64,000 nucleotides of DNA from Natronosalvus rutilus (GTDB taxonomy: Archaea > Halobacteriota > Halobacteria > Halobacteriales > Natrialbaceae). The position numbers and the translations under genes are program-made. Shown piece after piece: positions 11,396-17,524 of the stretch (positions are counted from its first letter, which is position 1; every line of letters starts with the position of its first letter). The stretch covers positions 1-64,000 of the forward strand of contig NZ_CP100357.1 in the NCBI RefSeq assembly GCF_024204665.1. Direction: 5' to 3'. The notes below the pieces were generated by a model. It saw nothing but the letters and a program-made list of their open reading frames with translations, had not been told where the DNA came from and did no database searches.

Positions 11396-11410
11396 CACAA
11401 GAATTGCCGA

Positions 11411-11550
11411 TGTCCTACGAACCACCGCCCCCACCGGCACACCTCTCGACGGAGATAGTCAACAGCCTCAACGAGTCTACACCGGACCACCTCTGAGACA
11501 TCGCCCGCTACGCCGAGGAGCTGGCCGAACACAAGGAGCGTGAGGGGCCC
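11411..11550 (+). pseudogene. Broken copy of the DUF6788-like gene
   Basis: The ATG at 11411 opens SYEPPPPPAHLSTEIVNSL, clearly related to the start of the gene at 17201-17524 (SYEPPTPPADLSTDVIDTL). An in-frame TGA follows DHL. The frame continues DIARYAEELAEHKERE before similarity ends near 11550. The upstream inverted repeat is conserved, so promoter and N-terminus were duplicated together. Confidence 0.75.
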
Positions 11551-11710
11551 TCGCTCACGAAGGGTCGAGACCTACGATGCCTCGTACTACGAGACGCAGT
11601 TCGTCCGAGCTGTCGAAAGCATACTTTCTTCTCTTGGTTGGGATCGCAAGGACATTCGACGAAAGCTCAATGGAACACGTGTAGTCGGTATCACGGACTG
11701 GACCTGACAA

Positions 11711-11739
11711 ACCCCCTCCCCCCTTTTTCGAGTTGTAAG
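11711..11739 (-). other. Origin recognition box, inverted copy
   Basis: On the minus strand this reads TTACAACTCGAAAAAGG followed by a G-rich tract. It is an exact 28-bp inverted match to 12074-12101. Together they bracket an AT-rich stretch, the layout of an archaeal origin with opposed Orc1/Cdc6 sites. Confidence 0.75.
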
Positions 11740-11879
11740 TCGCTGGGGCACAGACCACTCAAGACGGAAGGAATGAAAGTCGAGAAATTGAAAACGGGCA
11801 GAGAGGCTCTAAAACATCAAGATACACCGGAAAAGACCCCAAACGAGATTGGAGAGTCCGTGTTCCCTCTACGATCTTG

Positions 11880-12060
11880 ATCATATAGCTTGGCTAGATG
11901 ATCCGGTTTCCTATGACCTATTACGGTTATGGTTAGTGAATATGTGATATAAACTTTCGCATTGCAAGATTTATATTACAGAATCTGGTTTTCAGACCTT
12001 CTATTTCGTGTATCCAGTACAATTGGCTGTTTGATTACTTCTTTTGCTGTTCACCCCTCC
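11880..12060. other. AT-rich probable duplex-unwinding element
   Basis: This is the most AT-rich segment of the locus, with runs such as GTGATATAAACTTT and GATTTATATTACAG. It lies between the inverted recognition boxes at 11711 and 12074. Its position suggests the site where the origin melts. It has no coding potential. Confidence 0.6.
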
Positions 12061-12073
12061 CACCGTCACGAGT

Positions 12074-12582
12074 TTACAACTCGAAAAAGGGGGGAGGGGG
12101 TAGAACATTCAAGATCAACAAACCGGCTCTATGATTATCGTGCTTGTAAGTCAATATTACTGTCACTCGTGAACTGGTGCCGCAAGCATCGTCCCTTCAC
12201 AACAATCCTGGTTCTTACAACTCGAAAACGGGGGGTGTGAAACGAATCTTATCACTCAGAGCATCATTCACAAAATCCAAATCATGTAGGTTTTGTCTTC
12301 ATACTCGATTCGATCCACTTGCACTTACAACTCGAAAATGGGGAGGGTGGGAGAATCGTGCCAGATATGTTACCGTTTCTCAAAGACTTACAACTCGAAA
12401 ACGGGGCGGGGGGGGGGGGGGGCTAGTCACGATAGGATTCCGATGGCGAATATCCTTGAGGATTCGTTACAACTCGACAACGGAGGGTGATAGATTCCGA
12501 AGACGGTATCTAGTTCACTTCGAGAATGTACGACTGTAGTTGTTAGATCGTCTGATTTCGCCCGGTTACAACTCCACAAAGG
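12074..12582 (+). other. Origin recognition box array, upstream set
   Basis: Direct copies of TTACAACTCGAAAACGGGG start at 12074, 12215, 12325 and 12388, with degenerate ones at 12467 (CGACAACGGAGGG) and 12566 (CCACAAAGG). The copy at 12388 runs into 15 consecutive G (12408-12422). The motif has the layout of haloarchaeal origin boxes: a conserved core followed by a G string. The last degenerate copy lies just upstream of the orc promoter, so initiator binding could also regulate its own gene. Confidence 0.75.
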
Positions 12583-12586
12583 TCCA

Positions 12587-12597
12587 TATTTTTATAC
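12587..12597 (+). promoter_or_regulatory. orc1/cdc6 promoter
   Basis: ATTTTTATACC lies about 25 bp before the ATG at 12620 and directly after a degenerate recognition box (12566-12582). Confidence 0.55.
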
Positions 12598-12619
12598 CCG
12601 GAGTTCGAGGGGATTCATA

Positions 12620-14119
12620 ATGGGACGAGAGGGACGTAGAACAGAATCGGATCATCCGGAAGATGAGAAGGGTCATGAATCCTCCTCTGTTGATCCAGAA
12701 AATCTTGAATCGACGGGCCAGGATGCAGATTCCCCCGATACGTCACAAATGACGTTCGAGAATGAATCGGATTCTATCGATTACTCTCAAGAGGCAACAA
12801 ACGGCGACGATGGCGGCATCTCAATTCGGGATCGACTACAAACCGAATCATCCGGTGGAGTCTTCGCGAACAAAGACCTCGTCCGGTCAGATACCATCAT
12901 CGACGAGGATCGTATTGTCGGTCGTGATGACCAGCTAGGTCGAGTCGTCGACAATCTAAAACCGGTGCTCCAGAACGAAGGCATCCCGGATATGCTCCTG
13001 AGCGGCCCATCTGGAACTGGAAAGTCACTCATTATTCATGCGGTCTGTAAACAGATTGTCGAGCTGTGTGAATCACAAGGCAAGACCTTCGGGGTCCTCT
13101 CTATCAACTGTGAGGGGCCGAAGACTGCAGATCGGGCTGTCTATCGGTTAGTTCGAGCTGCTGCTGACGACCTCGGTGTTGATCCTGGTGTCCCCCAAAC
13201 TGGCGTCTCAACGGACCAGAAACTCGAGCGACTGTACGAACTGATGCGCGAGTACTACGACGGTGTCATCTTCATCCTTGATGAGATCGATATGCTTGAA
13301 GGGCCGTATCAGGAGGCAGAGTTCAATTCTCTCATCTACCAGCTTTCACGAGCTAGAAAACTCGCCGACTTTGATGGTCCGATATCACTCACGACTATCA
13401 CGAACTATGCCGATTTCATGAAGGATCTCAACAGCCGTGCACAGAGTTCCTACAATCCTGACGATATCTTCTTCGACGATTACGATGCGACGCAGCTTCG
13501 TAGTATTCTTCAAAACCGGCGAGACGCCTTCAAACCGGAATCTCTTGCAGATGATGTCATCCCGCTTGTTGCCGCGTTCGGATCTCAAACGCACGGGGAT
13601 GCGCGGAAAGCGATTGATCTCCTCAGGTGGGCTGGCGAATTAGCCGAACGACGTGGTGCTGACTCGGTTACTGAGACTGATGTCCGTGAAGCCCAGGAGA
13701 AATACACTGAAAATCGCAAACTTCGACACATTAGCGGGATCTCGACTCAAAAGAAACTCTCCATCTACGCTGTGGCGGCTACTGCCCACTACGCAAGAGA
13801 ACATCCTGAGTGGATACCCGCTGGACCCGCGTTCAAGACGTACCAGTTCATTGCTGATGCGATGGATGCGGATCAGTACAGCCGCGAGACTTTCGTAAAC
13901 CATGTGACTGAGCAGAGCACGTACGGAGTGTTGGACTTCGAGCGCCGAGGAAAGGGTCGTGGGAGAGGAGTGCATATGTACTTCTCCCTCTCTGAGGATG
14001 CGGAAACGATCATGGAGACGATCCGCGAAGATTCGCGGTTCGAAGATCTGTCTCGCGAAGAGGCGACCATTAGTGCAGTTGTCCGGGAACGACTGAAGCA
14101 GTTCCGGAGCAAGAATTAA
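12620..14119 (+). CDS. orc: Orc1/Cdc6 replication initiator
   Basis: This 499-residue AAA+ initiator is expected to bind the flanking recognition boxes and load the MCM helicase. The first 75 residues or so are an acidic, Ser/Asp-rich extension not needed by the family. IVGRDDQLGRVVDNL starts the AAA+ domain. Walker A is GPSGTGKS (about residue 128), Walker B FILDEIDML (about 215-223), and sensor II lies in HGDARKAIDLL (about 318-328). A C-terminal winged helix begins near residue 370 (KLSIYAVAATAHYAREH) and should read the box core. It sits inside an array of its presumed binding sites on both sides, the standard arrangement of haloarchaeal plasmid origins. Confidence 0.93.
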   Translation: MGREGRRTESDHPEDEKGHESSSVDPENLESTGQDADSPDTSQMTFENESDSIDYSQEATNGDDGGISIRDRLQTESSGGVFANKDLVRSDTIIDEDRIVGRDDQLGRVVDNLKPVLQNEGIPDMLLSGPSGTGKSLIIHAVCKQIVELCESQGKTFGVLSINCEGPKTADRAVYRLVRAAADDLGVDPGVPQTGVSTDQKLERLYELMREYYDGVIFILDEIDMLEGPYQEAEFNSLIYQLSRARKLADFDGPISLTTITNYADFMKDLNSRAQSSYNPDDIFFDDYDATQLRSILQNRRDAFKPESLADDVIPLVAAFGSQTHGDARKAIDLLRWAGELAERRGADSVTETDVREAQEKYTENRKLRHISGISTQKKLSIYAVAATAHYAREHPEWIPAGPAFKTYQFIADAMDADQYSRETFVNHVTEQSTYGVLDFERRGKGRGRGVHMYFSLSEDAETIMETIREDSRFEDLSREEATISAVVRERLKQFRSKN

Positions 14120-14141
14120 TCTCGACTTGTTCACGCCCGAT

Positions 14142-14300
14142 TTACTACTCGAAAACGGGGTGTGTTCTCGATCTGAGGGAGGCGTTACAACTCGAAAACG
14201 GGGGGGGGGGGGGGGTCATTCGCCGATTTTTCTCGTTACTACTCGAAAATGGGGGGTGTCATTCACCAGTTTTCTCGTTACTACTCGAAAACGGGGGGTG
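14142..14300 (+). other. Origin recognition box array, downstream set
   Basis: Four direct copies follow the orc gene: 14142 (TTACTACTCGAAAACGGGG), 14185 (TTACAACTCGAAAACG plus 16 G at 14200-14215), 14236 and 14278. The last two belong to a 42-bp tandem unit that also repeats the preceding TTTCTCG. Orientation matches the upstream direct set. Confidence 0.7.
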
Positions 14301-14332: not shown

Positions 14333-14400
14333 TTGACATCCACCCACGACTGAAGTCGTGGGATTCCTCTCGTGGGAGTCTCAGTCGTCTGAGTCCCCGA
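14333..14400 (-). ncRNA. Putative 3' omega RNA / right-end RNA of the TnpB element
   Basis: In characterised IS605/IS1341 elements the RNA guide of TnpB is made from the tnpB 3' end and the right-end hairpin, with the guide taken from flanking DNA past the end. Here the corresponding parts are the last tnpB codons and the 9-bp hairpin at 14343-14362, with the boundary near 14333. The flank below 14333 would be the guide. The RNA itself is inferred from architecture. Confidence 0.45.
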
Positions 14401-15709
14401 GAGCGACATTCCCGCGTGGTGCGGTACTCTGGTTTGTGTACGCCTCGTTGGCCATTGTCTCCGCAATGGAGGGCGGGCTGTGGTGTTCCCGCCAGTCGTG
14501 ATTGTTCCACTTGAGGTACACGGGTCGTGCCATCGACCCGACTGCTGTTTGCCGTCTCAGGAACGATTCCGACGCGCCGAGGTCGGCGTGTCCTTCGAAC
14601 CCACACGGACACGTCAGCGAGTCCTCGTGGCGAAGTGTATTGTCGCGTTCACCGCATACAGGACATTCCTGACTCGTCCACGCTTCGGATTCTTCCTTGA
14701 CTGTGATGCCGTATTCTTCGCACACGTCTTCGAGGCGGTTGATGAACCGCCGGTACGCCCAGAAGGTGTGCGTCTTCTCGTTCACACGCGCCGACCAGTG
14801 CGTTGAGAGAACGCCCTTGATGTCCCCGACGTACAGCATCGAAACGCCCTCGCCATACAGGCGTTCAACGAGGTCTCGGACAAGGCTGTCTTGTGCGTGG
14901 TTACGGCGGTTCGTGCGCTTTCGATACAAGCGGTCGATGCGCTTGCTGGACTTGCGTTGGTCTTCGAGGAGCGACTGATAGTGCGCGATTCGTTCGGTGG
15001 TTTCGCGGAACTCCTTGAACAAATTGCGTCCGTCGTACAGGTATTGGGAGCCGGTTGTCGTCGTGCAGGCGACGAGGTTGTTCGCGCCAACGTCCAGAGC
15101 GGCTTCTTCCGAAGCCAGTGGTGAATCCAGTCGAGAACTGTCGATGGTGACTGGTTGGAAAGCCCTGAACGTATCTTCGAGTTCGTCGTACACGAGTTCG
15201 AGTCGGCCCTGCTCACCGTTCCACTTCGGGTCGCCCGCAACCTCAACACGAAGGCGCTGATTCCGATTCAGCCCGAGTTCGTCTTTGAGGTCAGAGCCAA
15301 TCGGTATTTCGAGGCGAGATCGGTCACCGAACTCAAGGGTGTACTGGTCGTTGCGGACGTACGTGCGAAGCACGCGTCCGTCCTCCTTGTTGCCCCAGTA
15401 CCCCGGTGGCGACGGGCGTGCATCGAGTTTCCCGGCGTGGTACGTCTCGTTACTGGAAAAAAACGACCGCCACGCCTTCGAGTTCTTCCGAATGAGTTGT
15501 TGGGCAACCGAACTACTGAGAACGCCCTTGTATTTGCCTTCGAGCCTGCCGGTGTCGACGTCCCAGACACTTTCGTCTGTGAGGAAGGCTTCACGGCGAG
15601 CGTAGTTCGTCCCGTTCCAGAGACTCGCAGAAGCGTCCAACCAGCGAACGAACACCTCGCGCTCCTTCTTGGAACGAGGGCGAACGTCGAACTGGTTGGT
15701 TCGCTTCAT
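14381..15709 (-). CDS. tnpB: TnpB RNA-guided nuclease-like protein
   Basis: This 442-residue protein of the IS1341/OrfB group is full-length for the family. An N-terminal helix-turn-helix/wedge region (residues 1-190) precedes the RuvC core: Asp 207 in [11 protein letters not shown], a second acid at Asp 297 in [13 protein letters not shown] (most studied TnpB proteins have Glu here), and Asp 377 in GHADLGAS (numbered from the ATG at 15712). The zinc finger uses CPVCGERDN and CPCGFEG. TnpB proteins cut DNA guided by an RNA from the element's right end and help retain the transposon. The ATG at 15709 was chosen from two adjacent Met codons. No tnpA partner is present, so the element would need transposase in trans. 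Confidence 0.88.
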
Positions 15710-15878
15710 CACTACGTGCTACGTAATATTGGTTCGTAAGCGTATGGATTAGCGTGGGAGACTCGGGCCTGCTATTGAGAGGGGTTAGTGGAGTGGAGTG
15801 TCGGATTCATCCCACGACTAAAGTCGTGGGCTTTCTCCTTGACTTCGTGTAATATGTCTTCTCCTCGCCCTCTCCCAT

Positions 15879-15901
15879 TTACAACTCGAAAACGGGGAGT
15901 G
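15879..15901 (+). other. Isolated origin recognition box
   Basis: TTACAACTCGAAAACGGGG plus AGTG is a near-consensus box separated from the rest of the array by the TnpB element. It shows the array extended further before insertion. Confidence 0.65.
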
Positions 15902-17200: not shown

Positions 17201-17524
17201 CTACTCGTCTGAATTCACTGGGGACTTGTACTTTGACTTGATGCGATCTCCATCCCGCCACTGCCAGTAGTAGTATCGGTTGTCGTTGATCTCTTTGATC
17301 GTGAGTGTCGCTTTCGAAGGGACGTCATCGGGAAGATTGTCGGGGTGCTCGTTGAGTTCGTCTTCCTCGTCTGCTTCGGCAAGGCGGGCCTCGCGCTCGC
17401 GATACTCGGCGAGTTCCTCGGCATAGCGGGCAACGCGCCGGAGTTGCTCGAGCGAGTAGTCGTCGAGTGTGTCGATGACGTCGGTGGAGAGGTCCGCTGG
17501 GGGCGTCGGTGGCTCGTAGGACAT
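17201..17524 (-). CDS. DUF6788-like plasmid protein
   Basis: In the 107-residue protein the first half is a helical, charged segment (LEQLRRVARYAEELAEYRER). The second half, KATLTIKEINDNRYYYWQWR followed by GDRIKSKYKSPV, is the short beta-rich domain typical of DUF6788, which resembles small DNA-binding domains of integrase-like proteins. The ATG lies 12 bp from an inverted repeat (17537-17577). A broken copy with the same operator is at 11411. The molecular role is unknown. Confidence 0.75.
   Translation of the reverse strand: MSYEPPTPPADLSTDVIDTLDDYSLEQLRRVARYAEELAEYREREARLAEADEEDELNEHPDNLPDDVPSKATLTIKEINDNRYYYWQWRDGDRIKSKYKSPVNSDE

Follow-up and report, generated by a model that had tools for sequence, protein, structure and literature searches.

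The locus and its box array

The window analysed here comprises 64,000 nucleotides of Natronosalvus rutilus (positions 1 to 64,000 of contig NZ_CP100357.1), and belongs to contig 3 (C3; 126,734 bp) of a 4.31-Mb genome in four contigs, the nearest relatives of C3 being Natronosalvus plasmids. Within the window, an orc1/cdc6 initiator gene is embedded in an array of copies of a 19-nucleotide box, two of which form inverted arms around an AT-rich segment; this array and its gene, a probable replication origin, are the subject of this report. Their features are as follows.

11711-11738, minus strand: left arm box, TTACAACTCGAAAAAGGGGGGAGGGGGT, head inward and G-string outward; 98% mean column conservation in 25 plasmids
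11739-12073, no strand: inter-arm segment, putative unwinding region; inverted relative to orc1 in comparison with Natronosalvus caseinilyticus
11901-12050, no strand: most AT-rich 150 bp of the replicon; 35% GC against 56% for the replicon
12047-12061, minus strand: G-rich element GGGAGGGGTGAACAG, immediately internal to the arm of the 172-nt side; retained in the consensus of oriented segments
12074-12101, plus strand: right arm box, the exact inverse of the left arm; 99% mean column conservation
12215-12233, plus strand: direct box; about -392 from the Orc start in relatives
12325-12343, plus strand: direct box; about -283 in relatives
12388-12406, plus strand: direct box preceding a long expanded G run; about -220 in relatives
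12467-12485, plus strand: variant direct box TTACAACTCGACAACGGAG; -153 in relatives
12566-12584, plus strand: degenerate promoter box TTACAACTCCACAAAGGTC, 4 mismatches; at -54, abutting the TATA box on its upstream side
12589-12596, plus strand: TATA box TTTTTATA, centred 27 nt before the ATG; conserved
12620-14119, plus strand: orc1/cdc6 initiator gene, 499 aa; AAA+ core, Cdc6 lid and winged helix
14142-14160, plus strand: downstream cluster box 1
14185-14203, plus strand: downstream cluster box 2, preceding an expanded G run
14236-14254, plus strand: downstream cluster box 3
14278-14296, plus strand: downstream cluster box 4
15879-15897, plus strand: downstream cluster box 5, an exact match displaced by a TnpB element; about +198 from the Orc stop in relatives

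When boxes are counted at up to 4 mismatches to the 19-mer, twelve are present, as the original prediction from this sequence had claimed; only eleven of these fall within the 11711-14300 interval to which it assigned them, while the twelfth (15879-15897) lies past a TnpB gene, such that the true end of the array is at 15897. The two 28-nt arms at 11711 and 12074 are 100% complementary, exactly as had been described, and the remaining copies (12215, 12325, 12388, 12467, 12566, 14142, 14185, 14236 and 14278) are indeed direct. The stretch between the arms, reported as AT-rich, contains the 150-bp window of lowest GC on the replicon. A genome-wide scan of all 4.31 Mb at no more than 3 mismatches placed 11 of 12 matches to the 19-mer within 4.2 kb at the array, and a reversed 19-mer used as a control pattern yielded zero matches in the same genome; this clustering, together with the empty control, argues that the array is not a product of chance. 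The G runs at 12402-12423 and 14199-14215 number approximately 16-17 G in the window and approximately 6 in relatives, and are possibly sites of slippage or quadruplex formation.

The 499-aa product of the embedded gene is recognized in a domain and family search by TIGR02928 (E 4e-105) as well as by PF22703 and PF09079, and matches by sequence the solved archaeal initiators of chains 2qby and 2v1u. It falls below the cut-offs of the curated ORC1-type equivalogs (226 bits against 501 for NF001625, with NF001624, NF001626 and NF001623 also below), and, since we take NF001623-NF001626 to represent the oriC1-type Orcs, the window Orc is not placed in the conserved haloarchaeal oriC1 family. A centre 27 nt before the ATG is the TATA spacing expected for a leaderless haloarchaeal transcript. 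The promoter box and TATA box together (12566-12602) show 97% mean conservation, the -54 box being degenerate in the same manner in nearly every plasmid (TTACAACTCCACAAGGGTCCA) and running into TTTTTATA, so that its deviations from the consensus are themselves conserved. Conservation of the TATA box supports the ATG at 12620. In public records, members of this family (the window gene and relatives H2-H24) mostly bear only the name "AAA family ATPase," and in some of these records the start lies approximately 31 codons late.

Evidence for an Orc1-dependent origin

Several observations indicate that a 126.7-kb haloarchaeal plasmid very probably replicates from this locus in an Orc1-dependent manner, with phased arms and with self-repression and titration as proposed additional features. 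Firstly, the locus possesses the attributes of a haloarchaeal Orc origin: an intact adjacent orc1/cdc6 gene, inverted box repeats around an AT-rich region, and a G-string of the halophile type, as defined in PMC3528665, at the box end. Secondly, the Orc is the only one on C3, the others of the genome residing on contigs 1 and 2. Thirdly, its relatives, 87-97% identical in several haloarchaeal families, are encoded mainly on plasmid-like contigs, and in seven plasmids of 52-165 kb (H3, H6, H8, H10, H13, H14 and H16) this Orc is the sole one detected; for the 52.6-kb member of these seven, the genes listed in a partial table name no second initiator. Taken together, the Orc domains, the sole Orc, the AT-rich centre, the conserved boxes and the sole-Orc relatives bear out the origin reading that had been proposed, and the 11901-12050 interval is the probable duplex unwinding element.

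The layout is kept at more than 40 orthologous plasmid loci. In relatives, the arms are approximately 355 apart, further boxes occur at -392, -283, -220, -153 and -54, and downstream boxes occur mostly at +27, +70, +113 and +198. Box columns upstream of the gene average 92% conservation, as compared with 69% outside the boxes. The locus thereby defines a widespread plasmid origin family spanning several haloarchaeal families. Searches of viral contigs returned three single-box matches, none accompanied by an Orc or an arm pair in the stretches examined, and phage records contained only Orcs approximately 25% identical. A role as a parS-like partition site was also considered and dropped, as the boxes track Orc rather than ParA.

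Two further observations concern the distribution of the unit. On Natrialba magadii pNMAG02 (233113-233485; L143:5114-5486), an orphan arm pair with 354-bp spacing and a dyad is found with no Orc nearby. Some plasmids carry two copies of the whole origin-initiator unit (L116/L132, L127/L137, G078:C3), an arrangement in which incompatibility might be expected.

Box specificity

Linkage between each Orc and its boxes suggests that Orc1 binds only its own box type. The other Orcs of the genome with detectable boxes are associated with AACACTCGACACGGTGGGG (contig 1) and with ATACAGCGGCAATGAGGGG and ACACTCGTGAAATGTGGGG (contig 2), while a sister Orc family, approximately 50% identical, uses the box TTACACWTCGATNACGGGG. 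On an N. caseinilyticus plasmid carrying both Orcs, only the cognate box type is present beside each. That the box types of different Orcs do not mix upholds the proposal of a replicon-specific initiator-box pair, although such pairs are known in kind for haloarchaea (PMC3528665, PMC3936714). Likewise, the motif does differ from the classical origin recognition box (ORB), but this is to be expected, as haloarchaeal ORBs are already known to be divergent, initiator-specific and equipped with a G-string (PMC3528665, PMC3936714).

Helical phasing of the arms

The spacing of ORBs has mostly been regarded as loose. Spacing was compared among 49 distinct segments of the window family (family A) and 60 of the sister family, a few of the latter at 213-317. 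Start-to-start distances between arms cluster at 332-336, 343-348, 353-359 and 365-366, with few between, such that spacing is quantised at about 333, 345, 356 and 366 bp, in steps of one helical turn. Phasing at about 10.9 bp is found in both Orc families. With segments merged at 70% identity into 36 clusters, the maximum R over periods of 10-11.5 bp was 0.73, as compared with 0.18 in smoothed nulls, and none of 4000 simulations reached 0.73 (p = 2.5e-4 or less, the simulation floor). Clusters outside the main class are also in phase (p 5e-5 at 70% merging and 5e-4 at 65%); significance is lost only under single linkage at 60%, which merges nearly all segments and leaves the test powerless.

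Whole-turn spacing recurs across independent lineages. At least 24 changes of spacing class are needed on an Orc tree comprising 92 loci, and trees of the inter-arm segment itself require at least 9 and at least 8 (at least 17 together); as the classes are broad, these counts demonstrate repeated shifts, and the claim of phase rests on the gaps between classes. Alternatively, the classes could stem from a small set of ancestral lengths that recombination has spread, or from mutation in units of 10-11 bp, rather than from selection for phase. Spacing is somewhat clustered phylogenetically and plasmids often exchange DNA, as this explanation would have it. Yet the 333/345 alleles of family-A loci L089, L090, L094, L118 and L136 resemble a 355/356 allele more closely than they do other members of their class, and near relatives differ by one or two turns via several unequal gaps (e.g., 16+4+1+1 or 15+4+2+1+1+1), which argues against a simple repeat unit, a whole-turn difference being a sum of several gaps. 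Moreover, the same phases occur in two families with approximately 50% identical Orcs and opposite gene order, the arm pair lying upstream of the gene in all family-A loci and downstream of it in the sister family. We consider shared ancestral lengths or a mutational unit to be an unlikely, if still serious, account of the spacing.

From the spacing statistics we infer a helically phased synapsis of Orc1 across the unwinding region. Approximately 90 natural origins with whole-turn spacing, in two Orc families, provide a handle on how Orc1 molecules at different ORBs cooperate in DNA opening and MCM loading, and on whether a looped face-to-face complex or independent binding operates at such origins.

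The central dyad

Between the arms lies an additional symmetric element.

11879-11903, no strand: central dyad GATCATATAGC(TTG)GCTAGATGATC, one mismatch; distances of 140 nt to the left arm and 170 nt to the right

Most family-A segments contain an inverted repeat of 10-11 bp with a 3-5-nt loop, such as AATCGTCTAGC-TCCG-GCTAGACGATT. The repeat starts 171-173 nt away from one of the arms, its distance to the opposite arm being mostly 139-143, 130-131 or 118-120 nt, and it is well above the expectation from shuffled segments. With the register anchored on CTAG, dyad halves pair better within a plasmid than when dealt between plasmids (4.17 vs. 2.75 of 6, p 2e-4), and a 65%-identical branch carries a different dyad, GATACGTAAG-N4-CTTACGTATC, at the same position. 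Since symmetry is kept while the dyad sequence changes, these data suggest that the dyad serves as a structure or as the site of a coevolved dimeric factor. Some plasmids of the sister family show a weaker dyad, near 129 and 181 nt.

Inversion of the inter-arm segment

When segments are oriented by the orc1 gene, the window segment matches that of N. caseinilyticus in reverse (identity 0.88, as compared with 0.56 forward), while the flanks match forward (0.92 and 0.89). Similarly, the segments of Halobaculum magnesiiphilum and Halobacterium sp. KA-4 are reversed relative to one another (0.96), and the matched stretch of their Orcs shows no difference. Of the family-A segments, 35 have one orientation and 11 the opposite one; the confident calls imply at least 8 changes, the orientations do not cluster on the tree, and flipping is seen chiefly with near-perfect arms. 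In sister-family loci, where the tails of the two arms are often unlike, two changes suffice to explain the confident calls. Because the breakpoints are at the arms, recombination between them is the simplest cause; mis-assembly is unlikely given the four-contig genome, the complete circular N. caseinilyticus plasmid and the short 28-bp repeats. Duplicates within the same plasmid showed no flip in Halorientalis marina or Natrinema hispanicum, in each of which the copies share an orientation, and the two copies of N. versiforme are too diverged for orientation to be compared. Flipping between the initiator's own boxes suggests that the origin can work in either orientation.

The original prediction recognized the array and its gene but overlooked the TnpB interruption, the promoter box, the central dyad, the invertibility and the helical phasing. 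To our knowledge, arm-spacing quantisation, segment flipping and a covarying dyad are undescribed for archaeal origins, and a literature search found no paper joining helical phase or helical turn with archaeal origins.

A proposed mechanism

In the mechanism we propose, Orc1, encoded inside the array, would bind only its own box type, and the two arms would act as high-affinity boxes, heads inward, flanking the AT-rich region with its central dyad. By analogy with Sulfolobus and haloarchaeal precedents, Orc1 on both arms would recruit the MCM helicase into this region. Since the arms are a whole number of helical turns apart, it is further proposed that opening requires the two arms with their bound Orc1 to point in the same direction, probably in contact across a looped segment. 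Synapsis and the perfect repeat would then permit occasional inversion of the segment by recombination, the symmetric origin remaining in working order. The degenerate -54 box beside the TATA box is probably a weak operator for self-repression by Orc1, and the downstream cluster, as judged from oriC2D of Haloarcula hispanica, probably titrates Orc1 and so limits copy number. The strongest form of this proposal, namely that initiation needs Orc1 synapsis on two boxes approximately 33 turns apart with the dyad in phase, and that the unwinding region flips within cells via the initiator's boxes, is put forward tentatively, as a real possibility that falls short of being probable.

Several points weigh against our interpretation, which is drawn from sequence anatomy and from comparison with approximately 90 related plasmids. 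The cumulative GC skew of C3, a weak proxy, shows no turn near 12 kb and thus no origin signal, and the search for non-Orc initiators elsewhere on C3 was not exhaustive. With respect to phasing, spacings of 348, 351 and 359 fall between classes and one sub-branch lies at 315-317. Furthermore, an unrelated Orc family of the same order, with a ATACAGCGG box, has variable spacing and no phasing, which indicates that phasing is not a general rule; a search of the AACACTCGACAC family gave too few usable arm pairs for a check.

Neighbouring genes and the probable activity of the origin

Two neighbouring features bear on whether the origin is active.

11558-11701, plus strand: 3' remnant of a family-B DNA polymerase gene (polB), approximately 48 codons; 77% identity to residues 670-717 of Haloarcula sp. 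JP-L23 PolB
14381-15712, minus strand: TnpB gene of IS605 type (NF040570, E 5e-42), with related hairpin ends near 14345 and 15815

An intact PolB gene occupies this place, ending at the left arm, in several relatives (L089, L090 and L097-L099), while the window and many relatives retain only the 3' end of polB. At 11407-11550, adjoining the remnant, lies a degenerate piece of a duplicate of the small gene at 17201-17524, which suggests that polB was lost in a rearrangement. Two small genes precede polB in relatives, and an SOS-response-associated peptidase and an AAA ATPase are encoded close by (L089:2953-5109 and neighbours); this neighbourhood may constitute a plasmid replication or repair module. 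On the other side of orc1, a TnpB-only element (14340-15840) with hairpin ends CCCACGACTGAAGTCGTGGG and CCCACGACTAAAGTCGTGGG splits downstream boxes 4 and 5 of what was a single ancestral cluster, its insertion being inferred from comparison of the flanks with relatives that do not have the element (L088, L090, L091, L095 and L097).

The reduction of PolB to a remnant and the presence of TnpB inside the cluster would suit a decayed or dormant origin, in which boxes and gene persist at a non-functional copy while C3 uses some other means of replication. Haloferax mediterranei provides known examples of dormant Orc origins (PMC4595724), and the orphan arm pair of N. magadii pNMAG02 is a further case in favor of such decay. 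Nevertheless, Orc1 is intact and is the only Orc on the replicon, and TnpB lies outside the core formed by the arms and the unwinding element. Most relatives, too, are without an intact adjacent PolB and still keep everything else; polB is not needed for the layout. Dormancy is therefore regarded as improbable. Even more remote is the notion that the boxes are operators of an Orc homologue acting as a transcriptional regulator, with the array serving its own expression, for although one box abuts the TATA box and PMC9738581 describes the Sulfolobus Orc1-2 as such a non-initiator regulator, a regulator has no need of inverted, phased arms flanking the stretch where the replicon is most AT-rich, the genome-wide 19-mer scan found no boxes elsewhere as regulon sites, and the sister family has its arm pair downstream of the gene.

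Comparison with known systems

The Orc1-dependent origin proposed here would be a replicon-specific Orc1-ORB origin of a known kind, set apart by its phased arms, dyad and invertible core. It resembles oriC2-cdc6E/oriC2D of H. hispanica, in which the origin lies upstream of its own orc/cdc6 gene and the same ORBs cluster downstream (PMC3936714), the latter cluster lowering origin activity, probably by titrating Cdc6 (PMC3936714). The window likewise has a cluster of cognate boxes directly downstream of the gene, five in number and conserved in relatives, where they mostly follow a 43-nt period. Unlike oriC2D, it is plasmid-borne, has another box sequence, carries five rather than eleven downstream boxes, and has exact, phased arms.

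Haloarchaeal oriC1, as in H. hispanica, also has inverted ORBs with G-strings around an AT-rich region, with GGGGAGGGGG inside the ORBs (PMC3936714), and the G-rich element at 12047-12061 resembles this oriC1 enhancer (PMC3936714). In the window, however, the G-rich element is one-sided, the arm boxes also have GGGGGGAGGGGG fused to them, and both the ORB core and the Orc differ. The orc/cdc6-adjacent origins of Wu et al. (2012) similarly comprise family-specific, Orc-linked ORBs located upstream, downstream or on both sides (PMC3528665); among the species of that study only sister members of approximately 50% identity were seen (pNRC200, pHALXA02), with no close Orc relative, and the N. magadii copy, having no Orc beside it, would escape the method employed (PMC3528665).

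Beyond the haloarchaea, the ORB3-DUE-ORB2 arrangement of Sulfolobus oriC1, where DUE denotes the duplex unwinding element, also places an extra element, in that case ucm with UBP, between two inverted ORBs (PMC12141716). There the ORBs are within approximately 130 bp, as opposed to 333-366 bp here, and ucm is a sequence motif bound by UBP, whereas the element of the window family is a covarying dyad (PMC12141716). Finally, the invertible L segment of halovirus PhiH is likewise origin-bearing haloarchaeal DNA that inverts (PMC6210493), although it spans 11-12 kb, includes RepH and is flanked by insertion sequences (IS), while the segment described here is 335 bp, lies inside the origin and is flanked by the initiator's boxes (PMC6210493).
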